Below, in pieces: positions 33,598 to 33,843 of a DNA stretch of 33,843 nt. The translations under genes and the position numbers were made by a program. This DNA comes from Vicinamibacterales bacterium. GTDB lineage: Bacteria; Acidobacteriota; Vicinamibacteria; Vicinamibacterales; UBA2999. The notes under the pieces were generated by a model that did no database searches, was not told where the DNA came from, and was given only the letters and a program-made list of their open reading frames with translations. The DNA lies in contig JAUXWO010000132.1 of the NCBI GenBank assembly GCA_030680175.1, positions 1 through 33,843 of the forward strand, read 5' to 3'. Numbering within the stretch: position 1 is the stretch's first letter; each line of letters opens with the position of its first letter.

Positions 33598-33605
33598 CGG
33601 GCGGA

Positions 33606-33611
33606 ATCATA
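33606..33611 (-). promoter_or_regulatory. Putative -10 box (TATGAT), leaderless start of the deacylase operon
   Basis: TATGAT on the minus strand ends eight bases before the ATG at 33597. Directly upstream of it, separated by two bases, begins a heptanucleotide array, so the -35 region is made entirely of repeats. Confidence 0.5.
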
Positions 33612-33613
33612 GA

Positions 33614-33843
33614 TCGCTATTCGCCGTTCGCTATTCGCTATTCGCTATTCGCTGTTCGCTGTTCGCTGTTCGCCATTCGCCATTCGCCATTCGCCATTCG
33701 CCATTCGCCATTCGCTGTTCACCGCCGACCGCGACCGCCGACCGCCCGCCGCCCACCGCCCACCGCCCACCGCCCACCGCCCACCGCCGACCGCCGACCG
33801 CCGACCGCCGACCGCCGACCGCCGACCGCGACCGCCGACCGCC
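33614..33843 (-). repeat. Heptanucleotide arrays: AYRGCGA x15, then a GC-rich 7-bp array to the window end
   Basis: On the + strand, 33614-33718 is fifteen perfect 7-mers of consensus TCGCYRT, in blocks: TAT, CGT, TAT x3, TGT x3, CAT x6, TGT (last three bases). On the minus strand this is AYRGCGA, the same as the array at 8733-8923. From 33719 the 7-bp phase continues in a different composition (CACCGCC and GACCGCC units) up to the window end, where it is cut off. This 230-bp stretch contains no gene. Confidence 0.93.

Follow-up and report, generated by a model that had tools for sequence, protein, structure and literature searches.

At one end of the stretch of DNA analyzed here, a long run of perfect heptamers stands directly before what could be the promoter of a deacylase gene. 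The first-pass annotation proposed that this array replaces the -35 region of the deacylase operon and that its length could tune expression. Is the array a working part of the promoter, or has it grown over DNA that the gene can spare? The window, i.e., the whole stretch, is one complete contig of 33,843 bases.

The array and the probable promoter of the deacylase gene

Direct reading of the sequence gave 15 consecutive perfect AYRGCGA units (105 bp) on the minus strand at 33614-33718, which are TTCGCYR units on the plus strand. On the minus strand, the array is followed in the 3' direction by TC, TATGAT (33611-33606), TCCGCCCG, and the ATG (33597-33595). The unit number, the 2 bp between the array and TATGAT, and the 8 bp between TATGAT and the ATG were all as annotated. 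The array had been given as 33598-33718, which needs correction: positions 33598-33613 are non-array, and the array proper starts at 33614. Overlapping AYRGCGA dimers numbered 14 within 33614-33718 and 30 in the whole window, whereas the shuffle mean was 0.01. From distal to proximal, the unit types were ACA, six ATG, three ACA, three ATA, ACG, and ATA. They were clustered in six runs (permutation p ~0.0016). Folding revealed no RNA structure of the array (z +0.7), and no GGG tracts able to form quadruplexes were read in AYRGCGA or TTCGCYR arrays. The annotation also held that a 7-bp spacing puts successive units on different sides of the DNA. This is right for neighbors; every third unit faces the same side, as a step of 21 bp amounts to roughly two turns of the helix.

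The annotation did not mention a further heptamer array, ACCGCCS (GACCGCC/CACCGCC, plus strand, 33721-33843). It lies directly upstream of the AYRGCGA array, on the same strand as TTCGCYR and 3' of it, and reaches the contig end. The window also contains 9-base arrays, ACACGAAGG and CCTTCGTGG (11767-11878 and 19752-19883), arranged as inverted arms between convergent genes. In the sampled stretches, 21 of 29 CACGAAGNN arrays were in convergent spacers and therefore may act as two-way terminators.

The deacylase gene (AstE_AspA_cat, PF24827, E 1.1e-15) occupies 32569-33597 on the minus strand. The gene caller preferred a start at 33546; for the array-context counts, the start was set by hand to the ATG at 33597, from which an orthologue (G009) aligns from residue 1. 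The end of the gene overlaps a gene for a family 5 solute-binding protein (PF00496, E 1.3e-95; 31019-32575, minus strand, start codon provisional). An ABC transporter permease gene (29254-30096, minus strand), identified by its Pfam match (PF00528, PF12911), is probably in the same operon; the Pfam scan omitted the ORF between the permease and solute-binding genes. A sister AYRGCGA array at 8737-8917 on the plus strand is imperfect (81 percent matches) and lies upstream of an AAGGAG site and an ATG at 8938. The ORF that follows (8938-9336, plus strand) had no Pfam match; we take it to be cupin-like. The sister array carries AYRGCGA on the plus strand toward this gene, so that both arrays stand in the same relation to their genes, as annotated (for an array at 8733).

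The TATGAT (33606-33611, minus strand) starts at -14 from the ATG. A search of 33500-33843 for a sigma-70 -35/-10 pair found none. We counted TANNNT upstream of 216 genes with more than 40 bp of upstream DNA, the deacylase gene being outside this set. TANNNT started at -15, -14, -13, and -12 in 6, 8, 1, and 10 cases, i.e., at 25 of the 216 start codons. The background was 34 over the 25 positions from -40 to -16, or 1.36 per position (Poisson p ~9e-10, with the positions picked after the counts had been seen). A Shine-Dalgarno peak was present too, with a tetramer at -16 to -5 in 68 of the 216 genes; leaderless-like promoters are therefore one class among others.

Orthologues of the deacylase were searched for in 60 genomes (45 + 15, own genome included) at E 1e-30. 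Only three relatives had one, G009 (75 percent), G025 (68), and G030 (68), all from one genus of the same family as the source genome. The G009 promoter reads TATAAT-TCCGCGC-ATG and has no array, with a single AGAACCCG just before the box. The G025 promoter reads TATAAT-GCCCGCCC-GTG behind nine perfect AGAACCNN octamers. That of G030 reads TATAAT-CCCCGCCC-GTG behind 11 perfect AGAACCNN octamers and one altered octamer, with another single copy apart. Both GTG starts were assigned by reading of the frame. Six bases separate the last octamer from the box in G025 and G030 (AGAACA and AGCACG), and they look like a broken octamer unit. In G030, a further array of ~13-base units (GGGCCCTTCGGGT) precedes the octamers.

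In all three orthologues, TATAAT is 7-8 bp from the start codon. TATGAT is a plausible -10 box, given the excess of TANNNT this far from start codons and the conservation of both box and spacing in the orthologues. The putative core promoter (-10 box and spacing) is conserved, and the DNA upstream of it appears exchangeable, being heptamers, octamers, or no array.

Heptamer repeats in the genome, its relatives, and the S10 region

A four-unit TTCGCYR pattern had 263 overlapping matches in the own genome, 128 and 135 by strand. It had none in 42 genomes of the same family and one each in 3 of 56 genomes of the same order. The reversed pattern, used as a control, had 0 matches in the own genome and 18 in one relative. 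The four-unit AGAACCNN pattern had 381 matches in G025 and none in its congener G009 or in the own genome; it was present in 5 of 43 genomes, and the four besides G025 carried 3 to 7. A wider scan of named genomes found TTCGCYR matches in at least 111 stretches from many phyla. Among the matches listed there, most arrays consisted of a single unit type, TTCGCTA above all, under a pattern that demanded YR. The own genome mixes all four YR forms (TG 140, TA 99, CG 63, CA 40, and other 81, of 423 units). Adjacent units were identical in 144 of 366 cases, with an expected share of 0.20.

In 400 kb of the own genome chosen regardless of arrays, there were 26 exact period-7 runs. Periods 4, 5, 6, 8, 10, and 11 gave 0, 1, 3, 5, 1, and 1, and period 9 gave 21 exact runs, partly coding. 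Two replicates of a first-order Markov null had three period-7 runs in all. Ten relatives, sampled at 26 to 80 kb each, had 0 to 9 such runs, most in G065 (9) and G025 (5) and none in G001 and G020. The arrays thus belong to the broad class of intergenic heptamer tandem arrays, as their 7-bp units are repeated in tandem at numerous scattered sites between genes, far in excess of chance. The idea that the assembly breaks at arrays was rejected, as only 2 of 15 readable contig starts began in heptamer arrays, judged by eye, with 5 of 20 masked N. Separately, inverted-repeat elements with GGTCTGGCACCGTGAC or GGGGTCAGATCTTGATC flank Y1 transposase genes or sit at contig starts of the own genome (four stretches).

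The gaps of the S10 region provided a natural series of spacers. The rplC-rplD gap was 2-6 nt in 13 of 30 genomes, 10-24 nt in four, and 28-129 nt in 13; that of the own genome is 119 nt of arrays. The mean lag-7 self-match of the 13 long gaps was 0.486 (0.478 without the own genome), the shuffles gave at most 0.326, and the other lags except 14 gave 0.21-0.29. We extended the analysis to five gaps (n = 10, 27, 28, 30, and 30 of 30 genomes per gap). In the 53 spacers of at least 24 nt from relatives, the self-match was 0.405 at lag 7 and 0.387 at lag 14, and 0.245-0.289 at lags 3-6 and 8-13. Without rplC-rplD, 41 spacers gave 0.395 at lag 7, with shuffles at 0.313 or less. Long spacers of relatives in four of the five gaps therefore have a 7-base period, and their motifs differ. 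The rplD-rplW gap had no clear lag-7 peak (0.33 vs 0.36 at lag 4, n 8).

Many spacers of relatives resemble two inverted heptamer arms. Among those of at least 57 nt, 19 of 26 folded with z below -2 against mononucleotide shuffles; individual values included +2.4 (G001), -1.9 (G051), -7.5 (G014), and -2.3 for one further spacer. The two S10 spacers of the own genome that were folded showed no such structure (z -0.7 and -0.9). Three relatives carry GTAGGGGCCG hairpins in rplC-rplD or rplD-rplW gaps, and these presumably resemble GTAG-tagged REP elements. In the own genome, the fusA-rpsJ and rplC-rplD gaps share their opening CTGTCGCCATTGCAGATTGCAG stretch, which may reflect local copying. Allowing up to one mismatch, a 21-mer of this stretch has no further occurrence in the genome. 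Dispersal of one long master copy was rejected, since this common 21-mer is confined to the two spacers.

Position and orientation of arrays relative to genes

We collected 51 arrays with at least four TTCGC cores from sampled stretches; all but two came from stretches chosen for arrays or from the window. Genes were called by scoring codons against the other five frames; some starts, such as that of rplP, are doubtful, and the carB array was counted inside an ORF. Forty-seven of the 51 arrays were flanked by called genes on both sides (35 tandem, 6 divergent, 6 convergent), two were inside called ORFs, and two were at edges, the deacylase array being one of the latter. Gene boundaries within 60 bp of arrays were 28 starts and 28 stops.

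AYRGCGA was in the sense orientation at 26 of the 28 start-side arrays (p 3e-6), so the orientation noted for the window's two arrays holds more widely. Stop-side arrays were sense in 12 and antisense in 16 cases, and tandem spacers alone had 22 co-oriented and 13 anti-oriented arrays. The 5' end of TTCGC was nearer a gene in 39 of 47 arrays (p 6e-6), with a median distance of 8 bp vs 98 bp. Divergent spacers held 6 of 47 arrays, whereas they made up 39 of 136 spacers of at least 80 bp (p 0.03).

Gaps between start-side arrays and start codons were often short: 1 nt in three, 2 nt in two, 3 nt in two, and 8 nt in four, i.e., 1-8 nt in 11 arrays. Those at 1 nt precede an HD-domain gene, a B12-binding-domain gene, and a carboxyl transferase gene. 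Two start-side arrays lie within the S10 operon, before rplD (8 nt) and rplP (17 or 23 nt, depending on the start chosen), interior sites where no promoter is expected. TANNNT at -15 to -12 was found in 2 of the 28 start-side genes, the deacylase gene included, which does not exceed the proportion of 25 in 216 at other genes. A Shine-Dalgarno tetramer at -16 to -5 was found in 4 of 28 start-side genes vs 68 of 216 elsewhere (p 0.08).

These results indicated that the array is not promoter-specific. A promoter role of arrays in general lacks support, because half of the 56 boundaries are stops, arrays occur inside a ribosomal operon, and TANNNT accompanies only 2 of the 28. The annotated location of the deacylase array in a promoter region is thus credible for this gene, given the TANNNT peak and the conserved box and spacing, and it is unsupported as the general meaning of the arrays.

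In 34 of 37 pairs, the other repeat family within 250 bp of a TTCGC array shared its strand and lay 3' of it, a post hoc count of partly non-independent pairs from families defined after reading the data. Where two TTCGC arrays shared a spacer, they faced inward in 6 of 6 cases. In G025, AGAACC octamer arrays were sense at 9 of 10 starts. The AGAACCNN octamers of G025 had their 3' side nearer a gene in 15 of 22 cases and their 5' side in 7 of 22 (p 0.13). A 5'-side polarity as a general law was rejected: these octamers lean the other way, non-significantly, and the label of the repeat strand is arbitrary.

Origin of the arrays and their published counterparts

We think that the array is probably a lineage-specific, polar expansion of heptamers that fills dispensable spacer up to signals that are needed. 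Tandem repeats of 7 bases would expand in intergenic DNA by the addition of whole units, and the blocks of identical units point to such slippage growth. An array would fill spare spacer until it reached something that cannot be overwritten. At the deacylase gene, this limit would be a -10 box driving a leaderless or nearly leaderless transcript that starts at or beside the ATG, as the position and conservation of the box suggest. The -35 and activator region would be exchangeable there because the limit is the -10 box. At other genes, the limit would be a start codon, a Shine-Dalgarno site, or a stop codon. Most of the array would be neutral, and any effect of unit number on expression would be a by-product and may be small. 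In favor of this reading, four genomes share the predicted -10 box and its spacing and have different DNA upstream. Several points weigh against it. The orientation bias at start codons (26 of 28) is stronger than passive filler predicts, so they may act in the 5'-UTR or the promoter. Plain slippage does not account for a constant TTCGC core with two variable bases. Moreover, only three orthologous promoters besides the own one were available in 60 genomes, and rplD-rplW lacked a clear 7-nt peak.

The polarity of the arrays also fits a dedicated process that writes 7-base repeats into gene gaps, although we consider it unlikely. The repeat strand would run from an ORF edge with its 3' end into the spacer, other families would follow on the same strand, end arrays would face inward, and arrays would stop at needed signals. 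The pattern resembles what would result if 3' ends directed away from genes grew by 7 nt at a time and were joined afterwards; between genera, the motif would drift and the 7-nt step would persist. If so, the essential core of promoters and translation starts would be delimited by array ends, and the deacylase promoter would be a -10 box without a -35 region. The GGGNATC heptamers of Xanthomonas and Nostoc, which are dispersed in the genome and form G-quadruplexes, are, in the available part of the report, almost always nearer an ORF on their 5' side, in either ORF direction (Rehm et al. 2015, PMC4692102). As far as that part describes them, they share this 5' proximity with TTCGCNN (39 of 47) and their rarity between divergent ORFs (here 6 of 47 vs 39 of 136), whereas TTCGCYR units have no G tract for a quadruplex.

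Improbable, and ranked below this process, is a rheostat, in which slippage would change the unit number and thereby promoter output, by shifting where RNA polymerase makes contact upstream. The array stands against the -10 box, its units come in blocks, and the orthologous arrays have 9 vs 11 perfect units in two congeners, a difference between species. In the accessible portion of a study on Helicobacter pylori, the T-tract of sabA sets promoter output via such upstream contacts (PMC4081817). That tract likewise adjoins a core promoter; it is mononucleotide and its effect was tested, whereas our array is made of heptamers and any such effect is hypothetical. Against a rheostat, genera differ in both motif and period, G009 keeps the -10 box without any array, and arrays occur at stop codons and inside operons too.

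Still less probable is an action on translation initiation, with sense AYRGCGA in 5' leaders replacing the Shine-Dalgarno region. The sense orientation at 26 of 28 starts, the frequent gaps of 1-8 nt, the lower share of Shine-Dalgarno tetramers, and the sense arrays of G025 agree with such an action, and the rplD and rplP arrays are necessarily transcribed through if the operon is intact. TAACTGA direct repeats of marine Beggiatoaceae, cyanobacteria, and Bacteroidetes are a precedent: in Maribeggiatoa, 147 of 170 sets are oriented toward a start codon, 132 of these without a ribosome-binding site, and a role in translation initiation was proposed (MacGregor 2015, PMC4679880, cited from the sections at hand). 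In those sections, they resemble our arrays in being heptamers that are patchy among lineages, intergenic, oriented to start codons, and present in ribosomal protein operons, with the largest class 1 nt upstream of the start. Shine-Dalgarno sites are few behind TAACTGA and possibly behind our arrays (4 of 28 vs 68 of 216, p 0.08). The TAACTGA repeats differ in having one motif in 2-6 units in the Maribeggiatoa genome. Our units do not match TAACTGA; two bases vary within each, arrays reach ~20 units, several motif families follow one another, and in one case an array stands beside a conserved -10 box. Against this role, the deacylase -10 box lies between the array and the ATG, where a leaderless transcript would exclude the array, the gene at 8938 keeps AAGGAG between array and ATG, and the lower Shine-Dalgarno share is non-significant.

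Least probable of all, and very doubtful, is that arrays are ends or remnants of hairpin-like (REP/MITE-like) elements spread by a Y1 (HUH) transposase. In favor of this, TTCGC pairs face inward, 19 of 26 long spacers of relatives fold as hairpins, and the Y1_Tnp (PF01797) count correlates with rplC-rplD length (rho 0.58; 0.43 with p 0.018 as a partial correlation that takes genome size into account; both n 30, by statistics ignoring phylogeny). Against it, restricting the partial correlation to the family gives p 0.054 (n 24), no TTCGC array lies in the 4.3 kb around each of the three Y1 genes in the own genome, and neither the two S10 spacers of this genome that were folded nor the deacylase array form hairpins.

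Returning to expansion into spare spacer as the favored reading, heptamer arrays as a kind are already known, and our arrays are a variant of published ones. Heterocystous cyanobacteria carry short tandemly repeated repetitive (STRR) heptamers at many loci, whose likeness to our arrays is by description only (tandem heptamers, many loci). A survey, in its available text, found repeats of 6-11-mers over-represented in some genomes (PMC4060949). Our literature search found no paper on such arrays in this bacterial group, a statement limited to that search. The accessible text of the compared papers described neither an exchange of arrays that differ in period beside a single conserved -10 box nor heptamer-periodic spacers recurring in one operon gap.

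Heptamer arrays are thus known in scattered bacteria, and the series of S10 gaps, from 2 nt to 129 nt, makes their origin, growth direction, and fitness cost testable. At the deacylase promoter, unrelated tandem repeats seem able to take the place of an entire -35 region, with the -10 box and the start staying put. Such swaps would offer an easy means of telling the essential parts of promoters from the rest in uncultured bacteria.
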